Counted from the first letter of the stretch, positions 105 through 30,552 are shown. The stretch: DNA of 32,548 nucleotides from Draconibacterium orientale (GCA_020721645.1 DYMH01000027.1:1-32548), one strand, 5' to 3'. Numbers and translations: made by a program. The notes: a model not told the origin generated them from the sequence alone.

Positions 105-857
105 CTATCTCCGTTTTCTAGTAAAATCCAGAATGGCATTAATAAACATCAAAGGGTGAATCGGATTTCCGGGAATATACAAATCGACGGGATATTTTTC
201 TAAAAACCGCCTGTCGAGAGCCGGACTGTCGGCAAAAATACCGCCGCTGACAGCATCGACACCTGCCAAAATGATAATTTTAGGCTCCGGCACTGCATCA
301 TAGGCAATTTGCAAAGGAGTTGCCATGTTTTTGGCAATCGGCCCGGTTATTACGATACCGTCGGCATGGCGCGGCGAAGCGACAAAATCGATCCCGAAAC
401 GACTCATATCAAAATTTACATTATTGGCAGCATTCATTTCCCATTCGCAACTGTTGTCGCCGCCTGCGGAAACTTGTCGTAATTTGAGCGAACTGCTGAA
501 ATATTTTCTGATTTCGGGGCGAATTATTTGTTCGTTCATCGTAATCGGAAAATCATCACCTTCTTTAACAATTAATCGACTGCGGTCGTTCGATGCTAAT
601 TTATAATCTTTCGTAAAACGAATTTTTTCGGGAAACGCAACAGCACATTCGCCGCAAAAGGCACATTTTCCCAAATCTATTTGGACAGGATTTGTCGAAA
701 TAGCATTTAAGGGACACAAATCGACCAATGCAACTTCATCGACTGAACTATTACTTATAACCGGTCTGCCTCGATATACTCCCGGAACTACGGAAGTTCT
801 GACATCAGAAATGTACTGTTTTCCTTGATGATAGAGTATTTTGATTGAGTTGAACAT
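105..857 (-). CDS. Ehr complex small subunit: one-cluster ferredoxin domain fused to a NuoB/HyfI-like domain that has lost its cluster ligands
   Basis: 250 residues from the ATG at 857; a TTG start at 926 would overlap the upstream gene and add an unlikely leader. The N-terminal half is a HycF/NuoI-like ferredoxin domain with Cys48 (LCP), Cys65, Cys68 and Cys71. The usual fourth Cys of that last motif is missing (AFP at 74-76), so only one 4Fe-4S cluster is expected. The C-terminal half aligns with group 4 hydrogenase small subunits and NuoB (RHADGIVITGP at 163-173, SGGIF, PVDLYIPG). Of the four ligands of the proximal/N2 cluster only Cys137 remains: the first Cys position reads Asp134, the third is in GVDA (199-202) and the fourth is Asn231 in PGNP. 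It probably sits on the cytoplasmic face against the large subunit. Electron transfer cannot follow the usual hydrogenase route. Family placement is firm; function is unknown. Confidence 0.85.
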   Translation of the reverse strand: MFNSIKILYHQGKQYISDVRTSVVPGVYRGRPVISNSSVDEVALVDLCPLNAISTNPVQIDLGKCAFCGECAVAFPEKIRFTKDYKLASNDRSRLIVKEGDDFPITMNEQIIRPEIRKYFSSSLKLRQVSAGGDNSCEWEMNAANNVNFDMSRFGIDFVASPRHADGIVITGPIAKNMATPLQIAYDAVPEPKIIILAGVDAVSGGIFADSPALDRRFLEKYPVDLYIPGNPIHPLMFINAILDFTRKRR

Positions 858-907
858 TTTGTTGAATTTTAAGTTGAAAGTCGAAGTGTAATTTGTTTTA
901 CTTTTGG

Positions 908-2407
908 CTAAAGATCGTGCCCGCAATACGACAAATTAAAACTTTTGTTACAAATCGGGAAATCTGAAATTTCGTTATTCCTCACAGCCATCGCCAGAGC
1001 CGTCCAATTATGGAACGAAGGGTCTTTTATTTTGTAAACTGCCAATTCTCCGTTTTCGTCGGTAATTGCACAGTGGCAAATTTCACCGCGCCAACCTTCT
1101 ACTAAAGAAATTGTAAAAGAACTTGGAGCCGGCTGATATTTTTCGGTGATATTTTTTGATTCCGCAGGCATTTCGTCCAGCATTTTACGGATATAATCGA
1201 TAGATTGCAAAATTTCTTCTTTTCTGATTTGAGTTCGAGAATATACATCGCCGTGTCGCTTTACAATTGGTTGATGATTCAGGGTTTCATAAATGCCGAA
1301 TGGGTGTGTTTTGCGAATATCGCGTTCCGAACCGGATGCACGAGCCGATAAACCTACACAACCCAAAGCCCGAACAGTTTCCTCGGAAACAATTCCGGTT
1401 TTTTCCAAGCGAGCCAAAACCGAAGGTAAGGTGCTCATTGTTTGACTCATTTCTCTAAAATCGGGCTCGTATTTTGCGATAGTTTCTTTCCATTTTTCCA
1501 ATAATTCCGTGTTAAACGAGAAATTTGTTTTAAACGGTCGGATAAGTCCTTTGGCAAATCGATTCCCTGCCCAAATTTGGAAATAATTAATAATCGGAGT
1601 TCGTAAACGCCCAAAAACCGAGCTTCCCAATTGATAAGCAATATCGGTACAAATTGCGCTTAAATCGCCGGTGTGTATGGCGATGCGCTCGTGTTCGAGT
1701 GCCAGAAAACGGTCGAATTGCAATTTCAGCGACGCATCGAAACCACACAAACTTTCCCAAAGATTTACAAACGCAACCGTATGTCCGACAGGTGTATCAC
1801 CCACAATATTTTCGGCAAGCAATATTTTTTGAAGCAGTTTCTTTTTCTTTAAAAACAGTTCTTCAATTCCGCGATGTTGGTAACCTAATTGAATTTCGAG
1901 GTGCAAAATTTGTTCGCCGTTGCAAATAAACCGGAAATGCCCGGGTTCAATAATTCCGGCATGTATCGGACCGACTCCGACTTCGTGCAATTCTTCGCTG
2001 TGAATTTCGAAAAACGGATAATTTTCGACAGTATTTTTCTTATCAAATTGATTTTCGGGGTAGCGAACCGGTTTCAACCACGGATGATCGACGTATTTAA
2101 TTCCGAAATTTTCTGAAATTTCGCGTTCAAATTTTTCAAAAGTTGTATTATGTTTTGTAAAAGATGATAATCGTTGATTTTTATCGACAACAGAGGAAGA
2201 CACTCGAATTGTATGCGAGTCGTCGTCGGCAATACAGCAAATCAATTTGATTTTATCGTTAAAATAATGAGCAAAATAATTGACGCAATGCAAGTTTTGC
2301 AAATCGGAGGTTTCAACGGCATTGATTTGCAAAAATTCATCGTAAACTAAAATCGGAATTTCGGCATGGTCGATGGTTTGATTGTTTTTTATGTTGGTAC
2401 AGTTCAT
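908..2407 (-). CDS. Ehr complex large subunit (NuoCD/HyfG-like), lacking NiFe-binding cysteines
   Basis: 499 residues. Residues 1-130 resemble a NuoC/30-kDa domain; residues 140-499 resemble NuoD/HycE/HyfG, with the characteristic stretch GVGPIHAGIIEPGHFRF (144-160) and GYQHRGIEE (175-183). In NiFe hydrogenases the metal is held by RxCGxC and a C-terminal DPCxxC. Here the first site reads AENIVGDTPVGHT (198-210) with no Cys, and the end reads NLSYCGHDL (491-499) with a single misplaced Cys. The protein also simply ends there, without the peptide normally cleaved after NiFe insertion. It therefore cannot bind a NiFe centre in the known way. The start lies 1 base after the stop of the HyfF-like gene, indicating translational coupling. 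This matches the described 'Ehr' relatives of complex I, whose substrate is not established. Confidence 0.9.
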   Translation of the reverse strand: MNCTNIKNNQTIDHAEIPILVYDEFLQINAVETSDLQNLHCVNYFAHYFNDKIKLICCIADDDSHTIRVSSSVVDKNQRLSSFTKHNTTFEKFEREISENFGIKYVDHPWLKPVRYPENQFDKKNTVENYPFFEIHSEELHEVGVGPIHAGIIEPGHFRFICNGEQILHLEIQLGYQHRGIEELFLKKKKLLQKILLAENIVGDTPVGHTVAFVNLWESLCGFDASLKLQFDRFLALEHERIAIHTGDLSAICTDIAYQLGSSVFGRLRTPIINYFQIWAGNRFAKGLIRPFKTNFSFNTELLEKWKETIAKYEPDFREMSQTMSTLPSVLARLEKTGIVSEETVRALGCVGLSARASGSERDIRKTHPFGIYETLNHQPIVKRHGDVYSRTQIRKEEILQSIDYIRKMLDEMPAESKNITEKYQPAPSSFTISLVEGWRGEICHCAITDENGELAVYKIKDPSFHNWTALAMAVRNNEISDFPICNKSFNLSYCGHDL

Positions 2408-2408
2408 T

Positions 2409-3836
2409 TTATTTCGGTAAATTAATGACGGCTTCCTTGATTAAAATAACAAATTCCGCGGGAGGATTGTATCCCAAATAAATAGCCAAAACCAATAATA
2501 TCAATTGAGACAGCGATTCTACGGGCTTGATTTTTTCGACATGCGATTCGTCGAAATTCGATAATGGCGTGAACAGGAGTTTGAGCAAATTTTTGCCAAA
2601 TCCCCAAATAATAATTGTTAAAAACAGCAATACAAAACCCAAAAGTAAATAATAACGAGCGTTGAACAGCGATTGAAAAATCAAAAATTCGCTTACAAAC
2701 AAGCCGGAAGGCGGAATTGCTGTCGAACTTAGAAATCCGAGTAACAAAATCAAAGCTCCTGTTGTGTTGTATTTGAAGTAATTCCCTACATCGTAAATGC
2801 TTTTACTTTTGAAAACTCTATAAACCTGAGAAAATTGAAAAAATAAGCTTGATTTGACAAAAGCATGAAGAATAATATGTAAAATTGCCGCGTAATATCC
2901 CACTCCACCGGCAGCCAGAGCCAAAGTTACCAAGCCCATGTGTTCGATACTCGAATATGCAAACATTCGTTTGATATTTTTAATTCGAGTCATATAAACC
3001 GTTGCCACGAAAATAGACAAAGTTCCGGCAATCAGTAAAATCATATTTGCCCAAGCGTGCATCGAAGTTTGCGCCATAATGCCGTAGATTCGGAAAATGC
3101 CGACAAATCCCATATTCATCAAAACGCCTGAAAACAGAGCTCCTGCTGCCGAAGGAGCCTTGTCTTTGGCATCTATTCCTGCTGTGTACATGGGCACTAA
3201 ACCTATTTTTACGGTGAATCCTGTAAATATGAACAGAAATGCGAGTTTCAGCCAAAACGGATTCAAAGCCGAAGCGTTTGCCATTAAATTGACAAACGAC
3301 AAATCGTCGGAGCCGGCGTGTTGAAGAGATAAACTCAAAAAAAGTATGCCTATAAAAACAAATGTAATACTTACAGAACAGATAAAAACATATTTCCATG
3401 TTGCTTCCAACGAGCGTTCGTTGCGTCGGTGGTATATTAATGCCGATGCGCTGAGTGTGGTGATTTCGGCAAAAATCCACATAACCGCAATGTGATTTGC
3501 CAAATATGCCGCTCCGATAGAAGTAATTAACAAACTAACGGCGGCGTAATATATAGACTGCGATTTGGGTGAGTCTTTCCTTTCGTTGAGGTAAATATAA
3601 CTGTGAATAAATGCAGGTATGCTGATAATGCTCAATGTGCCCAGTAATAATATTCCCAAAGCATCGACCGTAAAATATTTAAAATCAGTTTCGTGCAAAT
3701 GTAAATATTCGTAAACCGTAAACGACAGTTGCACCAAAACAAATAAAACAATCAACGGAATATACAATTTCCGGTTGCGGTTAAAAAAGAATAATCCGCT
3801 TATTAATGTTGCGATTCCTAAATAAAGTAATATCAT
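2409..3836 (-). CDS. Ehr complex antiporter-like membrane subunit, HyfF/NuoN family
   Basis: 475 residues, strongly hydrophobic throughout, with about 13-14 predicted membrane segments. It belongs to the Mrp/NuoL-M-N proton-translocating family. The conserved helix glutamate is present (Glu124 in WIFAEITTLSASALIYH, 120-136) and so is the broken-helix lysine (Lys210 in FTVKIGLVP). The following loop, which normally reads PLHTWLPDAH, is changed to PMYTAGIDAK (215-224), so the usual His and Trp are gone. Its stop is followed 1 base later by the large-subunit start. Its position just before the catalytic-type subunits matches hyfF in hydrogenase-4 operons. Expected role: proton or sodium translocation within the complex. 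Confidence 0.85.
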   Translation of the reverse strand: MILLYLGIATLISGLFFFNRNRKLYIPLIVLFVLVQLSFTVYEYLHLHETDFKYFTVDALGILLLGTLSIISIPAFIHSYIYLNERKDSPKSQSIYYAAVSLLITSIGAAYLANHIAVMWIFAEITTLSASALIYHRRNERSLEATWKYVFICSVSITFVFIGILFLSLSLQHAGSDDLSFVNLMANASALNPFWLKLAFLFIFTGFTVKIGLVPMYTAGIDAKDKAPSAAGALFSGVLMNMGFVGIFRIYGIMAQTSMHAWANMILLIAGTLSIFVATVYMTRIKNIKRMFAYSSIEHMGLVTLALAAGGVGYYAAILHIILHAFVKSSLFFQFSQVYRVFKSKSIYDVGNYFKYNTTGALILLLGFLSSTAIPPSGLFVSEFLIFQSLFNARYYLLLGFVLLFLTIIIWGFGKNLLKLLFTPLSNFDESHVEKIKPVESLSQLILLVLAIYLGYNPPAEFVILIKEAVINLPK

Positions 3837-3932
3837 ATTTTTTTTCTGATAGTCGAATATGTATAAAATTTGATAATTTGTCGGAAAATATTTCGTAATG
3901 ATTTGTCAGTAATTTGTTTTTCAAACATAATT

Positions 3933-4562
3933 TCAATCAACCAGTCCTTTCAATTCATCGACATCGGGGTTCACCAGAATGTCGCCTATTTTATTGACAA
4001 AGATTCCCAAAATTAGCACACTGACAAAAATATCGAGCATGATTCCCATATTCAGCAACATCGGCATTTCGTTTCCGACAGCCAAAGAAAGAACGAAAAC
4101 GCCGTTTTCGATAATCAAATATCCGACAAGGTGTGTAATGATTTTTTTTCGCGAAGCAATCAGATACAATCCGGTAAACAGGGTGGACAATGCAACGACG
4201 AAAAATATTTTCTGAACATGTGTATCTTCAACGGCATTCGACAATAAAATGGTAATTACAATTATTCCCGTAACGATAATCAGCGAAAAGAAATGCGGCA
4301 AAAACGGTTCGGTTTCGCGAGTCATTTTGTTTCGTTTTATTAAGTATCGTAAAAAAAACGGAACAGCAATCGCCTTAAAAACAATTGTTTCGAGCAAAAC
4401 CAAAACCAAGTTCCATGTTTCGATTTTATCCAACGCATTAAAAGTTACTCCGAACAAAATTAATCCTTGAATAATTAACATATATATAAAGGACAAAATT
4501 CGATTCGATATACTTGTGTATAAAAGCGTAATAATGAATAATATCAGCAATACATCGGTCAT
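3933..4562 (-). CDS. Ehr complex HyfE-like membrane subunit (NuoK-related)
   Basis: 209 residues with about six or seven hydrophobic segments, the length and pattern of hydrogenase-4 component E. The C-terminal half carries the NuoK-like region (LVGYLIIENGVFVLSLAVGN, 145-164) with a membrane-buried Glu in IENG, as is typical for the family. It lies between the HyfC-like and HyfF-like genes, the same relative order as in hyf operons. Expected role: link between the antiporter-like subunits and the peripheral module in proton transfer. Gaps to its neighbours are short (59 and 96 bases), so it should be cotranscribed. Confidence 0.82.
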   Translation of the reverse strand: MTDVLLILFIITLLYTSISNRILSFIYMLIIQGLILFGVTFNALDKIETWNLVLVLLETIVFKAIAVPFFLRYLIKRNKMTRETEPFLPHFFSLIIVTGIIVITILLSNAVEDTHVQKIFFVVALSTLFTGLYLIASRKKIITHLVGYLIIENGVFVLSLAVGNEMPMLLNMGIMLDIFVSVLILGIFVNKIGDILVNPDVDELKGLVD

Positions 4563-4621
4563 TTTTTATAATTTAAAATATTTCTAATTCGTGATATTCA
4601 AATCGGTTTCTTATGATTTTT

Positions 4622-5563
4622 TTAAACAAATTTTCCTGTTAAAAGCAAAACTGCGAAAAATATCAGCAAAGAAACCGAAGACAAGATGAAAATAAATTGC
4701 GGATTGTGTCCCATTCGGAAACGTGCCATGAAGGATTCAATCAACCCGGCAGACACTGCAAACAAAAATTGAACAACAAAAAATAACATTATACCGAAAG
4801 GCAAAGCCATGCCGTCGAGAAAGAAATTGGCAATCAGCGCGCCGTACATTGCAAATTTAAGGCTTGTTGTATAGAGAATCAAACCCAAATCGAAACCGCT
4901 GTTGTCTAAAATCATTACTTCGTGAATCATTGTCAGTTCGAGGTGCGTGTTGGGGTCATCGACAGGCATTCGGCTGTTTTCCGTCATTGCAATCATCACT
5001 AAGACAAATGTTGCCAGAACCGCCAACACGTAGGACAAATAAGTTTCTCGCGTTAGTTCTGCTCCCGGAGCAAAATGCGATGCAAGGTGTAAAGACGAGA
5101 AAATGTCGTGAAACGAAGTGAAACCCGTCAGCAGAGAAAATGAGCCCATTAGAATGAAAAAAGCCGGCTCGGCAAACATCGAAAACAAAGCTTCGCGGCT
5201 TGCCCCCATGCCTTCGAAACTGCTTCCGGTGTCTAATGCACCGATTATGCTGAAAAATTTTCCCATAGCCAACACATAGGCGAAAAATACGAAATCGCCG
5301 TTAAAAGAAATAAATCCGCTGCGCGAACCAAACGGAACGACAAGCAAAGCCGCAAGCACCGAAGCAAAATATACGGTCGGTGCTATTTGGAAGATATAAC
5401 TCGTGGTGCGGCTGTAAACTGCACCTTTACGCAATAATCGAATAATGTCGCGCATGGGTTGCATAATTCCGGGTCCTTTGCGCCCGGAAGCCAGACTTTT
5501 GGTGCGAATTAGAATTCCCATGAAAAACAGGCTCGAAATAAATATCAGTAAAAAACTTATCAT
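4622..5563 (-). CDS. Ehr complex HyfC/NuoH-like membrane anchor subunit
   Basis: 313 residues and about eight membrane helices. Family signatures are intact: GRKGPGIMQPMRD near 27-39 in the first cytoplasmic loop; GASREALFSMFAEPAFF near 120-136; and PVDDPNTHLELTMIHE at 200-215, the acidic loop that couples redox events to proton movement in NuoH and HycD/HyfC. In the superfamily this subunit contacts both peripheral subunits and forms the quinone chamber in complex I. The coupling residues are retained although the NiFe and proximal-cluster ligands are lost, which argues that the complex is active rather than decaying. Confidence 0.88.
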   Translation of the reverse strand: MISFLLIFISSLFFMGILIRTKSLASGRKGPGIMQPMRDIIRLLRKGAVYSRTTSYIFQIAPTVYFASVLAALLVVPFGSRSGFISFNGDFVFFAYVLAMGKFFSIIGALDTGSSFEGMGASREALFSMFAEPAFFILMGSFSLLTGFTSFHDIFSSLHLASHFAPGAELTRETYLSYVLAVLATFVLVMIAMTENSRMPVDDPNTHLELTMIHEVMILDNSGFDLGLILYTTSLKFAMYGALIANFFLDGMALPFGIMLFFVVQFLFAVSAGLIESFMARFRMGHNPQFIFILSSVSLLIFFAVLLLTGKFV

Positions 5564-5630
5564 TGATAATTGTTAATTGTTAATCAGCACAATTGTTTAA
5601 TGAATTTCAAATCTCATGCTTCATTTGTTC

Positions 5631-7655
5631 TTATATTGATTGTAAAAATGAAACGAGTATCAGAATTTTTTCATAAATGTACGGAATAATCATTGCCAAA
5701 GCTATAAATGCGATTTCGTAAATGATATATGTTTGTATTCGTCCGTTTTCGAGAAAAGAAAAAAGGCTGAAAAATGATTTTAACCGGTTCAAAGGTCTGT
5801 CTATCAAAATTTTTTCTATTTTATCGTAAGGGTGAATTTCGTGTCGTCCGCTTGTGGGGAAAATTCCTGTAACATCTTCTCTCCTTTTTTGGATTTCGAG
5901 AACAGGATTCACCAATTTACGATATGTTCGCACGAAAGACGATGCCGTATATTGCATTCTTTCGGCATTTCCGGTGTATCCGCAGCCCCAAGTTGCGTTG
6001 CAATTCACTGTTCTGTTTGTGTTGATTTTTTTTCGTATCAGAAAAATGAGAAAAATCAATCCGAGAAAAATCAGAGAATAATACCCGACCGAAGAAACAG
6101 TCGAAAGTGTCGATGCGACAAAGATTGCGTTGCCGCTCGGGACAGAATCGGTAAATAAATTTAAAGTATTTTGCATCAACACAAAAAAGAATTTCGGGAA
6201 AATACCTATAAGTATAATCGGCACGGCAGCCAAATACATAGGAATGAGTTTTTTGATATTCTTCTCAGGTGCTGTTTCGGAATGCGATTCGCGATTGCTG
6301 CCCAAAAATACTGTTCCGAAAGCTTTCGTAAAACAGAGCATTGCCAGCCCGCCGATAAAAGCCAATGCAAATATCGAAAAAATGAGCATCAGAACCTGCG
6401 CCAGATTTTGGTTTTGAATGCCGTTGAACATTCCGTCGTAAATGATAAATTCTGATACAAATCCGTTGAACGGCGGAATTCCGCAAATTGCCAAAGATGC
6501 AAGCAGAAACAAACCGGCTGTTTGCGGCATGAATTTAATCAATCCGCCGGATTTTTCCAAGTCCAAATTATGTGTGCTTTGATAAATATTTCCCGCGCCG
6601 TAAAACAGCAGCGACTTGAACAGCGAATGGTTGAGCGTGTGAAGTAAAGCTCCTGCAAATCCGGCAAATGTAAGACCGAAACTATTTATTCCCAATCCCA
6701 TGCAACCGATTCCGATGCCGATTCCGATTATACCGATATTTTCGATACTGTGATATGCCAAAAGTTTTTTCAGATTGTGTTGAACAATTGCCAACATTAC
6801 TCCGTAAACTCCCGAAATGACTGAAATTGTTAAAATGACAATGCCCACGAAATAAAAATCGGTTTCGACAGTGAGTATCATTCGCAGAATACCGTAGATT
6901 CCCATTTTAATGATTACGCCCGACATAACGCCCGAAATATGCGACGGTGCTGCCGGGTGTGCATAAGGCAACCACGTATGGAACGGAACAAAACCGGCTT
7001 TGACGGCAAATCCGATAAAAAACAATAAAAACAAAGCTATGCCGATAAATTCGGGACTTGTTGCCGTAAATTGTCGAATTGCTTCGAAATCGAAGGATTT
7101 AGTTTTCGCCGCCGCTCCGATAAAGGCTACAATGAGAAAGAGAACCGAAATGTGAGATTGTACGAAATAATTTAACCCGGCACGCAAAGTTGTGTGTTTC
7201 GTATGTTCAAATATCACCAACAGAAAAGCCGAAACGGTCATCATTTCCCAAGCAATCAAAAAAACTAAACTGTTTTGAATAACGGTAATTGCCGTAAGTG
7301 CGAAATGAAGCGAAATATAAGCCGCAAAATGCAGAGAAATATTTGAAATCTGTTCTTTGTAATGTTTCAGATATTGAACACCGTATAAAATGCCGGTGAT
7401 AAACGTAAAATTTATTATCAGAATAAACCACGCCGAAAGTGAGTCGATACGAATGGGAATAGGTCCGGTAACGGAACTGCCGGCGAAAATATATTCGAGA
7501 TTATTACCCGTGAACAGTATTTGAAATGCCGGAATACTGCTCGCGGTTGCCATAATAAAAACGCCGACTGTTACCATCCAATTTTTTATTTTTAAATTGA
7601 AGGATACAATCCCGACGATTGCTATTAATGCTGATACGGCAAAAAATAATATCAT
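5631..7655 (-). CDS. Ehr complex antiporter-like membrane subunit, HyfB/NuoL family, copy 1 (proximal to hyfC)
   Basis: 674 residues. It is a full-length HyfB-type subunit with about 14 core helices plus a C-terminal extension. Key transport residues are present: Glu137 (IAWEMM) and Lys219 followed by PFHTWLPYAH (His226). The C-terminal part has the HyfB signature TWGCGYTGNAERMQYT (about 545-570), a cytoplasmic stretch and a last helix near the end, comparable to the lateral arm of NuoL. It is a clear paralogue of the next gene upstream and differs from it throughout, so the duplication is old. Expected role: ion translocation. Confidence 0.88.
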   Translation of the reverse strand: MILFFAVSALIAIVGIVSFNLKIKNWMVTVGVFIMATASSIPAFQILFTGNNLEYIFAGSSVTGPIPIRIDSLSAWFILIINFTFITGILYGVQYLKHYKEQISNISLHFAAYISLHFALTAITVIQNSLVFLIAWEMMTVSAFLLVIFEHTKHTTLRAGLNYFVQSHISVLFLIVAFIGAAAKTKSFDFEAIRQFTATSPEFIGIALFLLFFIGFAVKAGFVPFHTWLPYAHPAAPSHISGVMSGVIIKMGIYGILRMILTVETDFYFVGIVILTISVISGVYGVMLAIVQHNLKKLLAYHSIENIGIIGIGIGIGCMGLGINSFGLTFAGFAGALLHTLNHSLFKSLLFYGAGNIYQSTHNLDLEKSGGLIKFMPQTAGLFLLASLAICGIPPFNGFVSEFIIYDGMFNGIQNQNLAQVLMLIFSIFALAFIGGLAMLCFTKAFGTVFLGSNRESHSETAPEKNIKKLIPMYLAAVPIILIGIFPKFFFVLMQNTLNLFTDSVPSGNAIFVASTLSTVSSVGYYSLIFLGLIFLIFLIRKKINTNRTVNCNATWGCGYTGNAERMQYTASSFVRTYRKLVNPVLEIQKRREDVTGIFPTSGRHEIHPYDKIEKILIDRPLNRLKSFFSLFSFLENGRIQTYIIYEIAFIALAMIIPYIYEKILILVSFLQSI

Positions 7656-7912
7656 ATTTCTAATAAGATATGAGATGCAAAATGTTAGATATAATACAAA
7701 ATAATTCTGTGTTTAGCTTTATTACGCAGTTGTATATTTTAATTCTTTTTTGTGATTTTTGTGCCTTCTTTGTAAACCTTTGTGTAATAGCTGTATCACA
7801 AAAGACACAGAGGAGGCACAAAGAAACACAAAGAGAGTCGATACTCTTTAATTAAACGACAATGATTTATTATTGATTTCTAATATCTTGTGTCTAAAAT
7901 CTCATATCTAAG
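7656..7912. repeat. nested inverted repeats between the two hyfB-like genes
   Basis: This 257-bp spacer has an outer 11-bp perfect inverted pair, AGATATGAGAT (7666-7676) and ATCTCATATCT (7899-7909). Nested inside is a long imperfect hairpin with arms of about 43 bases (7748-7790 and 7791-7833), built from words such as TTTGTGCCT and its complement AGGCACAAAG. Words of the type 'cacaaagacacagagg' look like spacer sequence I associate with Bacteroidota genomes. It could be a small mobile or inactive palindromic element, an attenuator, or an mRNA processing site. No gene is supported here. Confidence 0.6.
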
Positions 7913-9904
7913 TTAAAACAAATTAAAAATCGTTCCCAAAAAAATCAATACTATAAAAAATATACCGTAAAGCACATATTGCTGTGTTTTTCCGTTTTGT
8001 ATGAATTGAAAATAATTCAGAAAATGATTCAATCGTTTGACTGCCGGATTGACGAATCGACTTTCGGCAAAATCCAAATAAACAGAATCATGCGTGCGTT
8101 TTGAGGGGTGTAGTTCGTCTGCCCGAATTTCGATGTATTTTTTTTCTTCTTTAAGCAAGAAATTCAGCAGTTTGCCCAATGTTTTCGAGAACGATTTTCC
8201 GGTGTATTGCATTCGCGTGTTTGCCGCCGTATAGCCGCAACCCCATGTTTCTGCAATCGACGAGGGTTTTTGTTTCACCAATTTGAAACGGATAAAAATC
8301 AGTACAGCCGAGACGATAATAAAAATCATTGAAAATCGCCCAACCATAGTTATTGTTTCGATAACCGAATCGGCAACCGAAAAATCGACAAAATCCTTTG
8401 TTGCAGTGCTCGATATTAAAACAGATATGGCTTTGTCGTAGAAAAATTGCGGAAAAATTCCGATAAAAACGATGACTGCGATAATCAAATATTGGGGCAA
8501 TCGCATTACGAACGACACTTCGTGTGCATGTTCGGTATGTTCGGAGCGCGGCGAACCTAAGAATATCACTCCGAAGGCTTTTGTAAAAGTTAAAACAGCA
8601 ATTCCGCCAATGAGTGCAAGCCCTGCAATTCCCGAAATCATTAAAAAGACTGCGGTTGTATCGACCGATTTTATGCCTTCCAGAAAACCGGAGTACAGAA
8701 TAAATTCCGACACAAAAGCGTTGAAAGGCGGCAATCCCACGGCTGTCAATATCGCAATAAGATAGAAAACGGCAGTATGCGGCATTTTATGAATCAATCC
8801 ACCGAGTTTTTCCATATCGCGTGTGTGTGTTTGCTGATAAACGGAGCCGGAGGAGTAGAAAAGCATCGACTTAAACAACGAATGGTTGAGGGAATGAAGT
8901 AATGCTCCGCCGTAACCGAATATTATCAAAACGGAGTTCTCGATTCCGCTCCCTATCAATCCCATACCGATTCCGATGCCCACGATGCCGATATTTTCTA
9001 CCGTACTGTAAGCCGGCATTTTCTTTATGTCGAAACGCATTGCGGCGTTCAGTATTCCGTACAATCCGGTTGCTATCGACAGGCTTAAAATTATTTCGCC
9101 AAGCAGTAATTGGTCGTGGGCAAGATAAAAAACCATTCGTAAAATACCGTAGATTCCCAATTTCACAATTACGCCGGACATTACGCCCGATACATGCGAC
9201 GGGGCGGCAGGGTGTGCTTCGGGCAACCATGTGTGAAGAGGGACGAAACCGGATTTAACGGCAAAGCCTATGAAAAACAGAATGAAAAGCCAAATTGACG
9301 GATTGTGCAGAAAATATTCCTGAACGGCTTTGAAATCGAATGAAGATGTTGAGAAATATATCCAAATAAATCCAATGGTTAAAAACGCAACACTGATGTG
9401 CATTTGAACCAGATAATTGATTCCGGCTTTCAGCGTATTTGTATTTTGATGCTCGAATATCACCAAAAGCATCGAAGAAATCGACATCACTTCCCATGCC
9501 GTAAGAAATATCAAACTGTTTTGAAGAACGCAAACCCAAAGCATTGAAGCATGAAACGTGATAAACAAAATCCAATGCAGGGATAAATTTGATTTTCGGT
9601 CGGCATACGATTTCATGTATCCGCTGCCGAACAGCACGCCGGTGATGCTTGTGAAATTGATTATCAGAATAAACCATGCCGAAAGCGAATCGATGCGAAT
9701 GGCTATCAGACCCGTAATTGGCGAGCCTTGCAACAGAATTTCTGTCGGCAAACCGCCGAGTGCATTCCATGCAGGGATAAGCGAAGCTGCTGCATTTGAA
9801 ATAACTGCAATGACTGCTGCAATACTTTTCAATTTCGGATTGACAAAGGGAATAGTCACAACAGAAACCGCAAGAACAACGAATGAAAAATATATGAAGG
9901 GCAT
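7913..9904 (-). CDS. Ehr complex antiporter-like membrane subunit, HyfB/NuoL family, copy 2 (first gene of the operon)
   Basis: 663 residues, with the same architecture as the downstream paralogue. Glu138 is in LTAWEVM, Lys217 in FAVKSGF, and the loop PLHTWLPEAH (His224) is intact. NHSLFKSMLFY and the C-terminal TWGCGYTAANTRMQYT signature are present, followed by a final hydrophobic helix (QYVLYGIFFIVLIFLG). As the first gene it probably sets the operon start, with a leader of about 80 bases. Two long HyfB-type subunits plus a HyfF-type subunit give the complex three antiporter-like modules, as in complex I, implying a larger ion-pumping arm than in simple group 4 hydrogenases. Confidence 0.88.
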   Translation of the reverse strand: MPFIYFSFVVLAVSVVTIPFVNPKLKSIAAVIAVISNAAASLIPAWNALGGLPTEILLQGSPITGLIAIRIDSLSAWFILIINFTSITGVLFGSGYMKSYADRKSNLSLHWILFITFHASMLWVCVLQNSLIFLTAWEVMSISSMLLVIFEHQNTNTLKAGINYLVQMHISVAFLTIGFIWIYFSTSSFDFKAVQEYFLHNPSIWLFILFFIGFAVKSGFVPLHTWLPEAHPAAPSHVSGVMSGVIVKLGIYGILRMVFYLAHDQLLLGEIILSLSIATGLYGILNAAMRFDIKKMPAYSTVENIGIVGIGIGMGLIGSGIENSVLIIFGYGGALLHSLNHSLFKSMLFYSSGSVYQQTHTRDMEKLGGLIHKMPHTAVFYLIAILTAVGLPPFNAFVSEFILYSGFLEGIKSVDTTAVFLMISGIAGLALIGGIAVLTFTKAFGVIFLGSPRSEHTEHAHEVSFVMRLPQYLIIAVIVFIGIFPQFFYDKAISVLISSTATKDFVDFSVADSVIETITMVGRFSMIFIIVSAVLIFIRFKLVKQKPSSIAETWGCGYTAANTRMQYTGKSFSKTLGKLLNFLLKEEKKYIEIRADELHPSKRTHDSVYLDFAESRFVNPAVKRLNHFLNYFQFIQNGKTQQYVLYGIFFIVLIFLGTIFNLF

Positions 9905-10089: not shown

Positions 10090-10123
10090 ATTGACTTATC
10101 TCAACTTTATTTAGGTATTTTTG
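10090..10123 (+). promoter_or_regulatory. candidate promoter of the Crp/Fnr-family regulator gene
   Basis: ATTG at 10090-10093, a 22-base spacer and TATTTTTG at 10116-10123 fit the Bacteroidota form TTTG-N19-21-TAnnTTTG with one slack position. Transcription would start near 10130, about 30 bases before the ATG at 10160. Confidence 0.42.
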
Positions 10124-10159: not shown

Positions 10160-10870
10160 ATGGATTTCAACGCGGAAGGTTTTACATTAAAGAATTTCAG
10201 ATTCGAGAGCAACTCGGTTCTTACGGGTTTGTTGCCGGACGATTTGGCGGAAATAGACGCGAATATCAAGTATCGACATTATAAAAAAGGGAAGACAATT
10301 TTTACGGAAGGTGCATATCCGGCAGGTATTTTTTATGTGAAAGAGGGTTTGGTGAAAAAGTATAAAAACTTTAACGACAGCAAAGAACAGATAATTTACA
10401 TTTGTAACAGTGGCGAATTATTCGGTTATGCTGCCGTGTTGAGCGAAGAAACGTATCCGGATTCGGCATCGACTTTGGTCGATTCGCAGATTGGTTTTTT
10501 GCCGAAAGATGTTTTTTTGAAAATATTGAATCGTTCGCCAATTTTTTCGGTCAAATTGCTGAAAAATTTGAGCCACGAATATGGTGTCATGGCAAACAAT
10601 ATTGTAAGTTTTGCCCGGCGAAACGTTCGAGAGCGTTTGGCTTTGGTATTGATTGTTTTGAAAGATAAATTTAAAGTCGGAAACATCGATATGTCGCAAA
10701 CGGAAATATGCCTGTCGCGCGAAGATTTGGCAAATACGGTGGGCACTGCCGTTGAAACCTTAGTACGCTTGCTTCATGATTTTAAAGATGAAGGATTGAT
10801 TGCAGTGCACGGAAGAACAATTGTTTTGCTCAACGAAAATACTTTGGTAAAAGCGGCACATTTGTTTTAA
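10160..10870 (+). CDS. Crp/Fnr-family transcriptional regulator, divergent from the Ehr operon
   Basis: 236 residues: a cyclic-nucleotide-binding-like beta-roll (about 30-125), a dimerisation helix (about 128-160) and a C-terminal winged helix-turn-helix (about 175-230). The recognition helix reads TVGTAVETLVRLL (193-205), with the Glu199 and Arg203 typical of the family. The N terminus has no cysteine cluster, so it is not an oxygen-sensing Fe-S Fnr. The position of the cAMP-binding Arg-Ser in Crp reads Asp101-Ser102, so cAMP binding is unlikely. The ligand is unknown. Its divergent position and shared 255-bp spacer suggest that it regulates the Ehr operon and itself, but this is inference. 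Confidence 0.85.
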   Translation: MDFNAEGFTLKNFRFESNSVLTGLLPDDLAEIDANIKYRHYKKGKTIFTEGAYPAGIFYVKEGLVKKYKNFNDSKEQIIYICNSGELFGYAAVLSEETYPDSASTLVDSQIGFLPKDVFLKILNRSPIFSVKLLKNLSHEYGVMANNIVSFARRNVRERLALVLIVLKDKFKVGNIDMSQTEICLSREDLANTVGTAVETLVRLLHDFKDEGLIAVHGRTIVLLNENTLVKAAHLF

Positions 10871-23048: not shown

Positions 23049-23987
23049 TTATTGAATCAATTCCGGATTAATAAAATCTAAATTTCGTTTAAATCCATCG
23101 AATTTAGCACGTTTGACAGCCGATTTTCTAAAAATCGATTCAAAATCGGTTTTCGAAAGTTGATTCCAATCATTAAAAGTAAAATTTAACCAATCCAATT
23201 TCGGAATAAAACGTTCGTTGTTGTGTAATATTGGTTTTTTGTTGTGCGGGCAAACATCTTGACAAATATCGCAGCCGAAAATACGATTTGAGAATTTGCC
23301 TTTAAATTGTTTCGGAATATCACTCTTATTTTCTATTGTAAGATACGAAATACATTTGCCTGCATCTAAACCATTACTTTCGGACAGGGCTTGTGTTGGG
23401 CAGGCATCGATACATTTTGTACACGTTCCGCAATAATTTTTTGCAGGCAAATCGTAGTTAAATACTAAATCGCACAAAATTTCGGCGATAAAAAAAAAGG
23501 AACCGGCATTTTTGACGATTAAATTTCGGTTTTTCCCAATCCAGCCCAAACCGGAGAGTTGTGCCCACTTTTTTTCAAGAATTGGTGCACTGTCGGTGAA
23601 AATACGGAAAGTAAAATTGCCATAGAGAGATTTCATCGAATCAATTAATTGGTTCAGTCTGTCTTTTATAACTACATTATAATCTTCACCATAAGCATAT
23701 TTAGAAATAATGGGCAGATTGCCGGTTGATTGTATTTTATGAGGAAAATACGGATAAATTAATGAAATAACAGACTTTGTTCCGGGTAGAAGAAGTCGTG
23801 GGTCGAGTCTCATTTCAAAATGCCTTTCCATGTATATCATACCGGCATTTTGTCCGTTATCGAGCCATTTTCGTAGATTTTCTTCTTCTTCATCGAGTCT
23901 TCGTGCAGCAGAAATACCACAGCCGAAAAAGCCGAGACGTTTTGCTTCGGCTTTAAGTTTATCGGAATTACAGGCAGTGGTTTGCAT
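23049..23987 (-). CDS. queG: epoxyqueuosine reductase
   Basis: 312 residues from the ATG at 23987; the TTG at 24023 would add 12 poorly conserved residues. It reduces epoxyqueuosine to queuosine in the wobble base of GUN-reading tRNAs, using cobalamin and two 4Fe-4S clusters. The catalytic Asp132 is in FTDSAPILEK. Cluster ligands are in CGTCTKCIDACP (186-197), Cys212, and CDICQDVCP (239-247). The protein ends soon after the ferredoxin domain, so it lacks the C-terminal HEAT-like repeats of longer versions. It lies 67 bases after the DUF59 gene of the suf operon and may be cotranscribed with it, which fits an Fe-S enzyme. Confidence 0.93.
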   Translation of the reverse strand: MQTTACNSDKLKAEAKRLGFFGCGISAARRLDEEEENLRKWLDNGQNAGMIYMERHFEMRLDPRLLLPGTKSVISLIYPYFPHKIQSTGNLPIISKYAYGEDYNVVIKDRLNQLIDSMKSLYGNFTFRIFTDSAPILEKKWAQLSGLGWIGKNRNLIVKNAGSFFFIAEILCDLVFNYDLPAKNYCGTCTKCIDACPTQALSESNGLDAGKCISYLTIENKSDIPKQFKGKFSNRIFGCDICQDVCPHNKKPILHNNERFIPKLDWLNFTFNDWNQLSKTDFESIFRKSAVKRAKFDGFKRNLDFINPELIQ

Positions 23988-24054
23988 TGAGATGTTGAGA
24001 AAAAGTTGGTAAAAATTTCTCAAAAGGAAGTGAGGTATAATTTGTTTTTTGAAA

Positions 24055-24369
24055 TTACAAAAACCCTAATTCCAATTTTGCTTCTTCGCTCATCATCGAT
24101 TTGTCCCACGGCGGGTCGAAAACTAATTCGACATTGATGTTTTTTATGCCCGATACTCGGGTGAGAGATTCGTGCACTTCGTTTACAATATCATCGGCAA
24201 TAGGGCAGTTGGGAGCTGTAAGTGTCATTTTCAGAGTAACATTCTTATCGTCATCGACATCAACATCGTAAATCAAGCCCAAATCGTAGATATTTACGGG
24301 AATTTCGGGGTCGTAAATCAATTTGAGTTCTTTGAGAATATCCGATTCTATCTTTAATATTTCGTCCAT
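24055..24369 (-). CDS. DUF59/MIP18-family Fe-S assembly protein (SufT-like)
   Basis: 104 residues, a single DUF59 domain with the conserved Cys55 in LTAPNCPIADD and the DPEIPVNIYDLGL motif (20-32). Relatives (SufT, the domain in MIP18/CIA2 and PaaD) help deliver or mature Fe-S clusters. It starts 2 bases after sufE ends, so it is translationally coupled to the suf operon. Confidence 0.92.
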   Translation of the reverse strand: MDEILKIESDILKELKLIYDPEIPVNIYDLGLIYDVDVDDDKNVTLKMTLTAPNCPIADDIVNEVHESLTRVSGIKNINVELVFDPPWDKSMMSEEAKLELGFL

Positions 24370-24371
24370 AA

Positions 24372-24797
24372 TTATTCATTTGTTTTTGCTTGGTAGGCAA
24401 TTGCATAATTTTTAATTTGTTTTATCATCAATACCAATCCGTTGGCACGGGTTGGAGAAAGGTTTTGATGAAGTCCGATGCGGTCGATACAAAAGAGTTC
24501 TGTTTCGATTATTTCTTTCGGTGTTCGATTCGATAAAATATTCATGAGTAAAGCGATAATTCCTTTGGCGATAATTGCATCGGCATCGGCAGTGAATATG
24601 ACCTTCCCATCGATATAATCGGCATTGAGCCATACCCTGGATTGGCAACCGTTGATGATATTCGCCGGTGTTTTGTATTTTTCGTTGTAAGGCGTTAATT
24701 CGTTTCCCATTTCGATTATCATCTCATATTTATCCATCCAGTCATCGAACAGTGAAAATTCTTCAATAATTTGATTTTGTACTTCTTCGGTTGTCAT
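24372..24797 (-). CDS. sufE: cysteine desulfuration protein SufE
   Basis: 141 residues, the normal length. The sulfur-accepting Cys51 is in NGCQSRVWL. It takes persulfide from SufS and passes it to SufBCD. It lies directly downstream of sufS (47-base gap) and next to the DUF59 gene. Confidence 0.96.
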   Translation of the reverse strand: MTTEEVQNQIIEEFSLFDDWMDKYEMIIEMGNELTPYNEKYKTPANIINGCQSRVWLNADYIDGKVIFTADADAIIAKGIIALLMNILSNRTPKEIIETELFCIDRIGLHQNLSPTRANGLVLMIKQIKNYAIAYQAKTNE

Positions 24798-24844
24798 TTT
24801 TTAAGTATGGATTTGATACTGTAAAGAATTAATAAGTTGTTCTG

Positions 24845-26062
24845 TTAATGAAACATTTTTTGTACACGAAGCAATCCAAGGCATAATTCGTCTATTTCTT
24901 CTTTTGTGTTGTAAAAAGCGAAAGAAGCTCGAATTGTTCCGAGTATTCCGAAATGATGCATCACAGGTTCTGCACAGTGAGTGCCTGTTCTTACGGCAAT
25001 TCCGAGTTTGTCGAGTATCATGCCTGCATCATAGGGGTGAATGTTGCCGAGTTGGAATGACACGACACCGGTTTTTTTTGCGGCTGTACCTATCTTTTTC
25101 AGATTTTCGACTGTCTCCAATTTTTCTTCTGCATAATTTGCCAATTCCGTTTCGTAAGTCTGTATATTCTCCAAATCAATTTGGGTGATGTATTTTATTG
25201 CCTCGCCTAAACTGACAGCTCCCATGTAATTTGGGGTTCCCGCTTCAAATTTCAAAGGTAAATCGGCATATTCGGTCTTTGCGAAACTTACAGATTTTAT
25301 CATATCTCCCCCGCCCTGATATGGCGGCATTTGTTCGAGTAATTCGTGCTTTCCGTAGAGAACTCCAATGCCGGTTTCGGCATAAATTTTATGTCCCGAA
25401 AAAACATAAAAATCGCAATTCAATTCTTGTACATCTGTTTTAAAATGTTGAACACCCTGTGCTCCGTCAATTAACACTTTTGCATTAAATTCATGAGCTT
25501 TTTCAATGATTTTTCGTATATCATTAATGGTTCCCAAAGAGTTTGATACCTGTGCAACCGCAACAATTTTAACCTTTTCCGTCAAGAGTTCAATGTATTT
25601 ATCAAAATCAATTTCACCTTTATCGTTTATCGGTATCGACTTTAATATAGCATGCTTTCTTTGGCAAAGCATTTGCCACGGAACAATATTCGAGTGATGC
25701 TCGGATTCGGCAACCAATATCACATCACCTTTTTCAATAAAACGTTCACCATAGGAAAATGCTACTAAATTGATGGCATCGGTAGTGCCTTTTGTGAAAA
25801 TAATTTCTGATGATTTTTCGGCATTGATAAAGTTTTTTATCACCGTGCGTGCAGCTTCGTATTCATTGGTAGAAGCATCGCTTAGAAAATGCACGGCTCT
25901 GTGTACATTCGCATTGAATGATGAATACATTTCGGATATTTTTTCTATAACGCACAATGGTTTTTGTGTTGTCGCTGCATTATCAAGATATATCAGATTT
26001 TTGCCGTAAACTTTACGGCTTAATATGGGAAAATCGTCTCGTATTTTTTTTATATCAAACAT
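24845..26062 (-). CDS. sufS: cysteine desulfurase SufS
   Basis: 405 residues, a PLP-dependent class V aminotransferase-fold enzyme that releases sulfur from cysteine as persulfide. The PLP lysine Lys225 is in FSGHKIY and the catalytic Cys363 in RTGTHCAEP (the type II SufS/CsdA form). EHHSN (121-125) and LIDGAQG (197-203) hold the cofactor. The motif after the lysine reads AETGIGVLYG instead of the usual GPTG. It starts 15 bases after sufD ends. Confidence 0.96.
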   Translation of the reverse strand: MFDIKKIRDDFPILSRKVYGKNLIYLDNAATTQKPLCVIEKISEMYSSFNANVHRAVHFLSDASTNEYEAARTVIKNFINAEKSSEIIFTKGTTDAINLVAFSYGERFIEKGDVILVAESEHHSNIVPWQMLCQRKHAILKSIPINDKGEIDFDKYIELLTEKVKIVAVAQVSNSLGTINDIRKIIEKAHEFNAKVLIDGAQGVQHFKTDVQELNCDFYVFSGHKIYAETGIGVLYGKHELLEQMPPYQGGGDMIKSVSFAKTEYADLPLKFEAGTPNYMGAVSLGEAIKYITQIDLENIQTYETELANYAEEKLETVENLKKIGTAAKKTGVVSFQLGNIHPYDAGMILDKLGIAVRTGTHCAEPVMHHFGILGTIRASFAFYNTKEEIDELCLGLLRVQKMFH

Positions 26063-26077
26063 AATTGTTGGTAATTA

Positions 26078-27355
26078 TCAAAAATATTTGTTTTCAAACA
26101 AATTTTCGATATAATTTTTGTATTCCGGAATTGAGATTTTATCGATAACTTCTTTTGCAAACGCATTCAACATTAATATTTTTGCCTGTTTTTCTCCGAT
26201 TCCGCGAGATTGTAGATAAAACAAGGCTTCTTTATCAATTTGTCCGGTTGATGAACCATGTGAGCATTGCACGTCATCGGCATAAATTTCGAGTTGGGGA
26301 CGCGAATAGGCTTTGACATAATCAGTTAAAAGCAAATTTTTATTCAATTGACCGGCATCGGTTTTTTGGGCATTTTTATCTACTAAAACCCGTCCGCTGA
26401 ATACGCTGCGGGCTTGCCCGGCGATTATTCCTTTGAATAACTGACGCGATTTTCCGTGCGATTTTTCATGTTTGATTAAGATATAATTATCGAATTGTTG
26501 CTCGTTTGTAGGCAGATAAATTCCGTTTATTTCGGTACGGGCATTTTCTCCGGACAGATAAATTTTAATATCGTTGCGAAGAATTGCTCCCGAGAGGCTT
26601 GCTATATTTACAGTACTTTGGGTGTTTTCCGATTGTTTTAACCGTGTATTATTTAGTGAGCGGGTTTCGATATTTTCTTCTTGAAAGATGTTAAAATTTA
26701 GTATCGAATTTGCTTCGAGAAATATTTCGTTTTGCGAATTGCAGAACGATATCCCATCGGATAGAGATTTGGAAACAGTAATAACATTTACTTCCGAATT
26801 TTTTGCCAAAATAATTAAGTTACGAATTTGATAAGCTGTACTTTGACTTTCTGAATCGGATATGTTGAGAATTTGAATGGGTTTTTGCGATTTGAAATTT
26901 TCAGATACATAAATGAAGGCTCCGTTTTGTGCATAAGCCGTATTGAGAGCTGTAAAGACGGTTTCTATTTCCTTTTCGGATTGATTAAAATATTTATTGA
27001 AGATATCGGGATACATTTTCTTTCCTTCGGCAAGTGAACCGAGAAAGATATTGTTTTTTTCATTTTCAATTTTTGATAATTCTTTTTGAAAAGAACCATT
27101 TATAAAAACAAGACAATTGTCGTTCAACCCATTTATTTTTAATTCATTAATGGAAGTTATCCTGTTTTTTTTTGTGTGTGCCGAAAAATAAATTTGTTCA
27201 ACAAGAGTGCGTAAATCGGTGTTTCGCCAATTTTCGTCTGTTTTATTCGGCAATTCGTGTGTCTTTATATATTCAAGAGATTTTTCCCTGTCTTTGGTTT
27301 CCGAAATATTTGAATCCGAAGCGGAAAAAAGCTCGATGAAATTTTGCTTAGTCAT
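26078..27355 (-). CDS. sufD: Fe-S cluster assembly protein SufD
   Basis: 425 residues, with a beta-helix core and helical C terminus shared with SufB. The C-terminal region reads DDVQCSHGSSTGQIDKEALFYLQSRGI, the SufD form in which the conserved His lies in CSHGS. It forms SufBC2D, the scaffold complex. It is separated from sufC by 243 bases, unlike the tightly packed remainder of the operon. Confidence 0.95.
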   Translation of the reverse strand: MTKQNFIELFSASDSNISETKDREKSLEYIKTHELPNKTDENWRNTDLRTLVEQIYFSAHTKKNRITSINELKINGLNDNCLVFINGSFQKELSKIENEKNNIFLGSLAEGKKMYPDIFNKYFNQSEKEIETVFTALNTAYAQNGAFIYVSENFKSQKPIQILNISDSESQSTAYQIRNLIILAKNSEVNVITVSKSLSDGISFCNSQNEIFLEANSILNFNIFQEENIETRSLNNTRLKQSENTQSTVNIASLSGAILRNDIKIYLSGENARTEINGIYLPTNEQQFDNYILIKHEKSHGKSRQLFKGIIAGQARSVFSGRVLVDKNAQKTDAGQLNKNLLLTDYVKAYSRPQLEIYADDVQCSHGSSTGQIDKEALFYLQSRGIGEKQAKILMLNAFAKEVIDKISIPEYKNYIENLFENKYF

Positions 27356-27404
27356 GTTTTTGGTGTATTGATGTTTTATTTGGTGATGTATTGATTTGGT
27401 GATG

Positions 27405-27541
27405 CGTTGATAAGTAATCGGACAGATTTATTTGTATTTTAAATGTCCGTATTCTTTTAAAAATGAGATTTTTACTTCATTAATAAATAACCTTTACTTA
27501 ATACCTATTGTTATACTAAAAACGGTTTATTTGTTTACTTT
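27405..27541 (-). repeat. dispersed intergenic repeat, copy A, in the sufC-sufD spacer
   Basis: On the minus strand the spacer carries, in order, the AAAGTAAACAAATAAACC block shared with copy C, the AAGTAAAGGTTA...AATGAAGTAA block and the ATACGGACA...CTGTCCGA core (plus 27418-27452) shared with copy B, then TTACTTATCAACGCATC. It continues into degenerate tandem ATCACCAAATCAATAC-like units up to the sufD start. No open reading frame. Confidence 0.6.
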
Positions 27542-27598
27542 AAAATGTTTGTAAATTGTTAATATTCAAGATAATCGGCATTTCATCACATCAAAAAA

Positions 27599-28360
27599 TT
27601 AATCAATCAAAGTATAATTGTCTTTTTTAATCCAATCGTATCCTCGTTCTTCGAGTTCCATAGCAAGTTCTTTGGTGCCTGTTTTTACAATTTTACCGTT
27701 ATAAAGAACATGTACGACATCGGGCACAATATAATCAAGCAGTCGTTGGTAATGCGTGATTACCAAACTTGCATTTTTAGTTGTTTTAAGTTTATTCACC
27801 CCATCGGCAACAATTCGCAGGGCATCAATGTCGAGACCGGAATCCGTTTCATCGAGGATTTTCAATTTCGGGTCGAGCATTGCCATTTGAAAAACTTCAT
27901 TTTTCTTTTTTTCACCGCCCGAAAATCCTTCGTTCACAGCACGCCCTTCGAGTTTTGCTTCCATTTCAACGAGTTCTTTTTTTTCTTTCATCAATTTTAA
28001 AAATTGAGAAGCAGTTAGAGTTTCCAATCCCTGAAATTTACGATGTTCATCGACTGCTGCCCGCATAAAGTTGGTGATACTGACACCCGGAATTTCGACA
28101 GGATATTGGAATGCCAAAAAAATACCTGCCCGAGAGCGGTCTTCAACGCTCAAATCTAAGAGATTTTTACCTTCAAACTCGATGCAGCCTTCGGTGATTG
28201 TATAAATATCGCGACCTGCAATAATTGATGCCAAGGTACTTTTTCCCGAACCATTGGGACCCATTATGGCATGGACTTCGCCGGCATTTATTTCCAAATT
28301 TATTCCTTTCAATATTTCTTTGCCTTCGATTTCGGCTCTGAGATTTTTTATTTTTAACAT
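27599..28360 (-). CDS. sufC: Fe-S assembly ATPase SufC
   Basis: 253 residues, a soluble ABC ATPase. Walker A GPNGSGKST (34-42); ABC signature FSGGEKKKNE (146-155); Walker B KILDETDSGLDIDA (167-180) with catalytic Glu171. This ...DSGLDIDAL ending is diagnostic for SufC. It drives structural change in SufBC2D. It begins 7 bases after the barrel gene. Confidence 0.96.
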   Translation of the reverse strand: MLKIKNLRAEIEGKEILKGINLEINAGEVHAIMGPNGSGKSTLASIIAGRDIYTITEGCIEFEGKNLLDLSVEDRSRAGIFLAFQYPVEIPGVSITNFMRAAVDEHRKFQGLETLTASQFLKLMKEKKELVEMEAKLEGRAVNEGFSGGEKKKNEVFQMAMLDPKLKILDETDSGLDIDALRIVADGVNKLKTTKNASLVITHYQRLLDYIVPDVVHVLYNGKIVKTGTKELAMELEERGYDWIKKDNYTLID

Positions 28361-28367
28361 GAGATTA

Positions 28368-29048: not shown

Positions 29049-29065
29049 TTCTGTAATATTTATTG

Positions 29066-30520: not shown

Positions 30521-30552
30521 TTTTTTTAATCGTTTGATATTCAACCTGCTTT

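Follow-up and report, generated by a model that had tools for sequence, protein, structure and literature searches.

What can an energy-converting complex do once the sites at which its electrons would be handed on have disappeared? The question is raised by seven intact open reading frames (ORFs) on the minus strand, at positions 105-9904, of a contig from Draconibacterium orientale (GCA_020721645.1). This contig (G000:C204) was analysed whole; it is 32,548 nucleotides long, is called the window below, and belongs to a Bacteroidota genome (G000) that is 97.28% complete. Pfam and NCBIfam assign the products, in order of transcription, as a HyfB-like subunit, a second HyfB-like subunit, a HyfC/NuoH-like, a HyfE-like and a HyfF-like subunit, a large subunit in which NuoC- and NuoD-like parts are fused, and a small subunit that joins a Fer4 ferredoxin domain to a NuoB-like one. 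Every core subunit of a group 4 hydrogenase has a homologue within this single operon, as a first-pass annotation of the window had said in describing a seven-gene, hydrogenase-4-like complex with all its membrane subunits. By sequence, the product is an Ehr (energy-converting, or Ech, hydrogenase-related) complex, a member of a known family. What the annotation did not contain is the feature that concerns us most: besides the NiFe site of the large subunit, three of the four cysteines that should hold the N2 cluster of the small subunit, which would lie next to that site and supply it with electrons, are missing as well.

Published accounts agree that Ehr complexes are without the NiFe ligands and that no function has been established for them (PMC10284858, PMC12342949, PMC4378227, PMC6349859), and HydDB leaves them out as non-hydrogenases (PMC5037454). 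The criterion used here, a large subunit without the four NiFe cysteines, is that of PMC4378227 and PMC10284858. In alignment with HyfG, residues 200-209 of the window's large subunit read NIVGDTPVGH in place of RVCGICGFAH, and its C-terminus reads NLSYCGHDL-stop in place of DPCYSCTDR and a 32-residue tail. The RxCGxC and DPCxxC motifs are both missing, none of the four cysteines is present, and the protein finishes at GHDL without the C-terminal maturation-protease extension. The earlier statement that every NiFe-binding cysteine is absent thus holds, and the same alignment rules out a hydrogenase with shifted NiFe ligands. The four cysteines are likewise missing from every other Ehr large subunit examined. 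Missing too are the His and Tyr of the complex I quinone site of NuoD. The cavity itself is conserved to the same degree as in Ehr complexes that keep N2: G203, D204 and H209 are invariant, and a C-terminal NKSFNLSYCGHDL runs up to the stop codon. The nearest solved relative of the large subunit is HycE (7z0s_E). HycE is also the top structural match of an AlphaFold2 model, which has a predicted local distance difference test score (pLDDT) of 79 and is of low confidence at residues 111-177 and 482-499, probably owing to the absence of the partner chains from the model.

The change in the small subunit is best seen beside MbhJ and HycG. GGDNSCEWE stands where these have GSCNGCDIE and GGCNGCEIE, GVDAVSGG where they have GACPTGG and GACGNSGG, and PGNPI where they have PGCPP. 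The C-C-C-C ligand set of the N2 (proximal) [4Fe-4S] cluster has become D134-C137-D201-N231. At the thresholds used, the only small-subunit columns that cleanly split the window's clade from N2-intact Ehr are 134, 201 and 231, together with residue 136. The pattern D-x-D-N, where x is C, A, S, G or N, was found in all 38 further clade members (the window excluded) that were drawn from the order and the class. Since the second position varies in this way, Cys137 is dispensable, which makes a cluster at N2 very unlikely; an Asp-ligated [4Fe-4S] cluster at this site is disfavoured for the same reason. Each change from Cys to Asp or Asn (codons GAC, GAT and AAT) takes two base changes, which favours selection over drift. 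The fold of the small subunit is predicted to be intact: its AlphaFold2 model has a pLDDT of 85.4, and the best structural match is HycG (Z 17.9 over 138 residues, root-mean-square deviation 2.3). The fused ferredoxin domain has the ligands for one [4Fe-4S] cluster, C48, C65, C68 and C71, shared by about 81 of 83 small subunits and all present in every further clade member, from the order and class draws, in which the domain aligned. From standard ferredoxin topology we take this retained cluster to be the N6b of complex I. The cysteines of the second cluster of a 2[4Fe-4S] ferredoxin are missing from the window's small subunit and present in the sister L126 and in Variovorax. Literature searches, which did not cover Coppi 2005 or Marreiros 2013, the two papers that define the family, returned no published mention of N2 loss in Ehr.

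A scan for relatives of the large subunit found at least 545 encoding places, of which the best 80 (61-68% identity) were read. Nearly all of these loci are from Bacteroidota, and most of the well-covered ones hold the full operon. The annotation had itself named two things that could overturn it, CxxC pairs hidden by sequencing error and signs of a pseudogene. Both are ruled out, as the NiFe-less state of the window recurs at these 80 loci of other genomes, and the ratio of non-synonymous to synonymous substitution rates (dN/dS) is 0.04-0.19 between related pairs with unsaturated synonymous sites. Such purifying selection also agrees with the annotation's view of an intact Ehr without a hydrogenase site. 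All four N2 cysteines are found in the proteobacterial Ehr of Variovorax, Rhizobium, Paraburkholderia, Azospirillum and Methylocalor, in other lineages of Bacteroidota (L126-L139) and at loci L163 and L177. In a tree of large subunits the window's clade forms one group adjoining the N2-intact sister L126, and the branch with the Ehr rows on one side and HyfG and the hydrogenase of genome G326 on the other has a value of 100 in the Shimodaira-Hasegawa-like approximate likelihood ratio test (SH-aLRT). By these comparisons, N2 loss is a derived, selected state with a single origin in the window's clade.

In this tree, which was built quickly and includes long branches (A. silvanus and L040), at least three losses of N2 are needed overall, a provisional count. 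The two other losses are single sequences on these branches, with ligands T-D-E-S in A. silvanus and D-C-D-D in genome G032. The former, on a plasmid of Allomeiothermus silvanus (L143), is an Ehr without any N2 cysteine that retains one ferredoxin-type cluster as the window does, and looks like a second, independent case beyond the Bacteroidota. The latter (L040) is an Ehr of another type, with the small subunit first and without the ferredoxin domain, and is a possible case of convergent loss resting on one genome. Among the loci read out of two draws, of 395 genomes (class) and 247 genomes (order), there was no second member of the D-C-D-D type. A search of the order sample with the G032 small subunit gave matches at E<=1e-25 in 66 of the 247 genomes; the majority sit in frames some 250-265 residues long, the size of small subunits with a fused Fer4 domain, and NuoB of complex I accounts for a few. 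A plasmid of Variovorax sp. PBL-E5 (L142) carries two distinct Ehr-type operons about 3.4 kilobases apart, one with a Fer4-fused small subunit and the other with a short subunit annotated as NuoB-family (cut at the end of the stretch). The Bacteroidota genome G326 (L127, L141) combines an N2-intact Ehr with a true group 4 [NiFe] hydrogenase, in which the motifs ERICGIC and DPCYCC are present.

The membrane arm of the complex presents a different picture. In HyfB, E138, K217, K248 and K345 are invariant across 121 family sequences and K442 is kept in 120. Across 79 relatives there is no variation at E124, K210, K328 and E383 of HyfF, nor at acidic residues of HyfC such as D39, E124, E132, E195, E209, E215 and E276. 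By this conservation, the key Glu and Lys residues of the proton path are retained throughout the arm, in line with what had been noted at first.

Because the NiFe site and N2 have been lost while many species strictly conserve the parts that pump ions, the complex possibly moves ions without the customary path for electrons. The explanation to which we lean, at a little short of an even chance, is that this is an Ehr sub-clade whose electron wire has been cut, that is, an ion-translocating complex (H+ or Na+/H+) without electron transfer through N2. Electrons would be unable to follow the usual path, the NiFe ligands, the N2 ligand set and the quinone pair being all gone. The former N2 site would have turned into a hard-ligand or charge site of Asp, Asp and Asn, which might either bind a cation (Mg2+ or Ca2+, for example) or replace the negative charge of the cluster. 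The conserved cavity of the large subunit would then carry out a binding or protonation step independent of N2, coupling to or gating the membrane arm, and the remaining [4Fe-4S] cluster would probably be a redox sensor or a structural element. If correct, the working mode would be nearer to that of Mrp or of DAB-type non-redox relatives of complex I than to that of a hydrogenase. In Mrp antiporters and DAB-type NuoL-like transporters, proton-path membrane subunits operate without a redox chain. Mrp antiporters are treated in PMC7419157. These systems, the MrpA-G set among them, differ from the window's complex in having no NuoB/NuoD-like soluble arm, which here is present and conserved. A bolder version, in our opinion unlikely, would have electron transfer abandoned altogether in a machine of the complex I superfamily that is widespread in Bacteroidota, with binding or protonation chemistry at a selected Asp-Asp-Asn cation or charge site driving or gating the pump. 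Two findings weigh against a wire-cut complex: one [4Fe-4S] motif is strictly conserved, hinting that electrons matter somewhere, and the cavity does not differ from that of N2-intact Ehr, complexes that could well be redox enzymes.

The same two findings are at the root of the main rival, a redox pump still at work, in which the remaining ferredoxin-type cluster passes electrons to a substrate in the cavity and so drives ion translocation. This could happen directly or by way of a new cofactor (a mononuclear metal, a flavin or a quinone) bound by Asp, Asp and Asn. We consider it doubtful. The ferredoxin cysteines are kept in the first set of small subunits and in the further clade members alike, the cavity residues remain invariant, and the relatives with N2 intact have the look of complete redox enzymes. 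Against this, the retained cluster corresponds to N6b, and without N2 its gap to the cavity, judged from the general geometry of complex I, should exceed the usual tunnelling distance. The fourth N2 cysteine is dispensable and its former partners have given way to hard ligands. A donor module is not encoded nearby either: among 80 loci no partner oxidoreductase gene is conserved beside the operon, the largest neighbour cluster occurring in only 8, and no NuoEFG module for NADH input lies inside the operon or is conserved beside it in relatives. Of the annotation's suggestion of a working complex with an unknown electron donor and acceptor, the working complex stands, and the redox part is weakened by the replacement of N2 with Asp/Asp/Asn and by the absence of the quinone-site residues.

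The electrons could also come from a formate dehydrogenase encoded elsewhere, as in the complex of formate dehydrogenase and Ehr put forward for Margulisbacteria and Saganbacteria (PMC6349859); in G. sulfurreducens, Ehr subunits increase on formate (PMC7894505). For the window's clade such a link is improbable. Loss of N2 would prevent delivery of these electrons to the cavity, and genes for formate dehydrogenase, NuoE-like or NuoF-like proteins are neither conserved at the 80 Bacteroidota loci nor seen around the plasmid Ehr operons, the comparison being one of neighbourhoods and not a genome-wide search for formate dehydrogenase. It is very improbable, in turn, that the soluble arm is purely structural in a simple cation/proton antiporter, the Asp/Asp/Asn set filling the cavity of the cluster and neutralising nearby arginines. 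The membrane arm is intact and the cluster ligands have been specifically swapped for acidic and polar residues in an otherwise unchanged subunit, as this explanation would have it, but the cavity residues and the C-terminal NKSFNLSYCGHDL of the large subunit are conserved too strongly for a mere scaffold. A decaying relic, which the loss of two metal sites might bring to mind, is scarcely credible and is refuted as far as sequence allows: the operon is intact in dozens of genera, dN/dS is low and the replacement residues are invariant.

How does the wire-cut complex compare with systems already described? The Ehr cluster of G. sulfurreducens (GSU0739-45) consists of seven genes, of which EhrA-1, EhrC, EhrL and EhrS have been named (PMC7894505). 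It has the layout of the window, no NiFe cysteines and no expected role as a hydrogenase. The proteobacterial Ehr examined and the other Ehr lineages of Bacteroidota have four N2 cysteines; the window's clade differs in having D-C-D-N and one ferredoxin-type cluster. Intact N2 ligands are a trait of the proteobacterial Ehr examined that stands outside the published definitions consulted, and the window's clade does not share it. With hydrogenase-4 (Hyf) and formate hydrogenlyase (Hyc), which are group 4a [NiFe] hydrogenases, the window has the fold and subunits in common, HycG and HycE being the nearest solved structures. It differs from them in having no NiFe cysteines, maturation tail or N2 ligands and in being encoded in a genome without HypD or a NiFe hydrogenase; the electron-transfer proteins HyfA and HyfH are absent, and the small subunit has a fused ferredoxin domain instead. 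The three antiporter-like subunits, which had been thought to make this version large, do not set it apart: E. coli Hyf has three as well (HyfB, D and F), and the Ehr of G. sulfurreducens is just as much a seven-gene system. NuoB-, NuoCD-, NuoH- and NuoLMN-like modules are common to respiratory complex I and the window's operon, which in contrast has neither the quinone-site His and Tyr of NuoD, nor the N2 cysteines, nor a NuoEFG-like module. Mbx, the membrane-bound sulfane reductase (PDB 6u8y), is a group 4 relative likewise without NiFe hydrogenase function; it presumably keeps N2, and its match in sequence is distant (E=5e-11 for the large and 5e-10 for the small subunit).

Within the limits of its completeness, the genome was found to have no HypD and no NiFe hydrogenase (PF00374), and to have NuoB and NuoD of complex I; these were the genes for which the annotation had recommended a search. 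HypD is absent from 7 of 9 carrier genomes (G000 and relatives), and a tie to hydrogen metabolism was rejected, most carriers being without it. A tie to aerobic respiration was considered too; COX1-family proteins are present in some carriers and absent in others, which permits no inference. In a Paludibacter sp. (L070, 11527-21041) a complex I operon with NuoA-, NuoB-, NuoD-, NuoL- and NuoM-like ORFs directly follows the Ehr operon, and the two may be co-expressed there. At L096 a NuoA-like ORF comes after the small subunit. With respect to regulation, 12 of 65 operons have a TTGA-N6-TCAA box upstream, where random windows drawn from the same loci give 1.1 on average and 4 at most, and a Crp/Fnr gene is divergently adjacent (<=400 base pairs) in 7 of the 54 relative loci with sufficient upstream DNA. 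The operon is probably controlled by the divergent regulator of this type (Table 1).

The table gives the features with their positions; the Ehr-like names there follow what we take to be the full set of subunits, two EhrA, B, C, D, L and S, the second EhrA, EhrB and EhrD being our assumption. For the small subunit, the ATG at 857 is a more likely start than the alternative TTG at 926.

Table 1. The Ehr operon of the window, the three replaced N2 ligand codons, and the region upstream
Feature	Position	Strand	Basis or remark
HyfB-like antiporter-type subunit, first copy (EhrA-like)	7913..9904	-	NCBIfam PRK06521 E=2.9e-145
HyfB-like antiporter-type subunit, second copy (EhrA-like)	5631..7655	-	NCBIfam PRK06521 E=2.6e-148
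HyfC/NuoH-like membrane subunit (EhrB-like)	4622..5563	-	Pfam PF00146 E=8e-32
HyfE-like membrane subunit (EhrC-like)	3933..4562	-	NCBIfam PRK11492 E=1.8e-15
HyfF-like antiporter-type membrane subunit (EhrD-like)	2409..3836	-	NCBIfam PRK08676 / hydrogenase 4 subunit F
Large subunit (EhrL-like), fused NuoC-NuoD-like	908..2407	-	Pfam PF00346 + PF00329
Small subunit (EhrS-like), ferredoxin-like domain fused to NuoB/HycG-like domain	105..857	-	Pfam PF01058 E=1.3e-20
Asp134 codon GAC, first N2 ligand position	456..458	-	D in 82/82 of clade; C in 19/19 N2-intact Ehr
Asp201 codon GAT, third N2 ligand position	255..257	-	D in 80/82 of clade; C in 19/19 N2-intact Ehr
Asn231 codon AAT, fourth N2 ligand position	165..167	-	N in 80/82 of clade; C in 19/19 N2-intact Ehr
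FNR/Crp-type box TTGACTTATCTCAA, between operon and regulator	10091..10104	.	in the window, not above chance on its own
Crp/Fnr-family regulator, divergent from the operon	10160..10870	+	Pfam PF00027 + PF13545

A few other observations can be mentioned. Between the two HyfB-like genes there is an AT-rich gap of 257 base pairs (7656-7912), where in most relatives the same pair abuts or overlaps by a few bases. The gap contains the G/T-rich, repeat-like text CTTTGTGTTTCTTTGTGCCTCC without a convincing ORF, and is possibly a small repeat insertion within the operon. The number of HyfB-like copies varies between loci: most have two, L075 has three, and L104 (Arcticibacter eurypsychrophilus), L092 and L070 have one each. 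Elsewhere in the window, ORF translations point to an apparent SUF iron-sulfur assembly operon at 24055-30544 (SufB-, SufC-, SufD-, SufS-, SufE- and DUF59-like) and, after it, a QueG-like gene at 23049-24023.

On the evidence of its ligand positions, the N2-lost Ehr of Bacteroidota is a newly seen, wire-cut variant of Ehr. The family divides into N2-intact and N2-lost branches, and a single shared function can no longer be assigned to it. For complex I, the central open question is how proton pumping is driven by N2 and the substrate next to it. With the whole pump in place and three of the N2 ligands replaced, this natural and selected lineage would be a ready-made test of whether the redox chemistry of N2 is needed at all.

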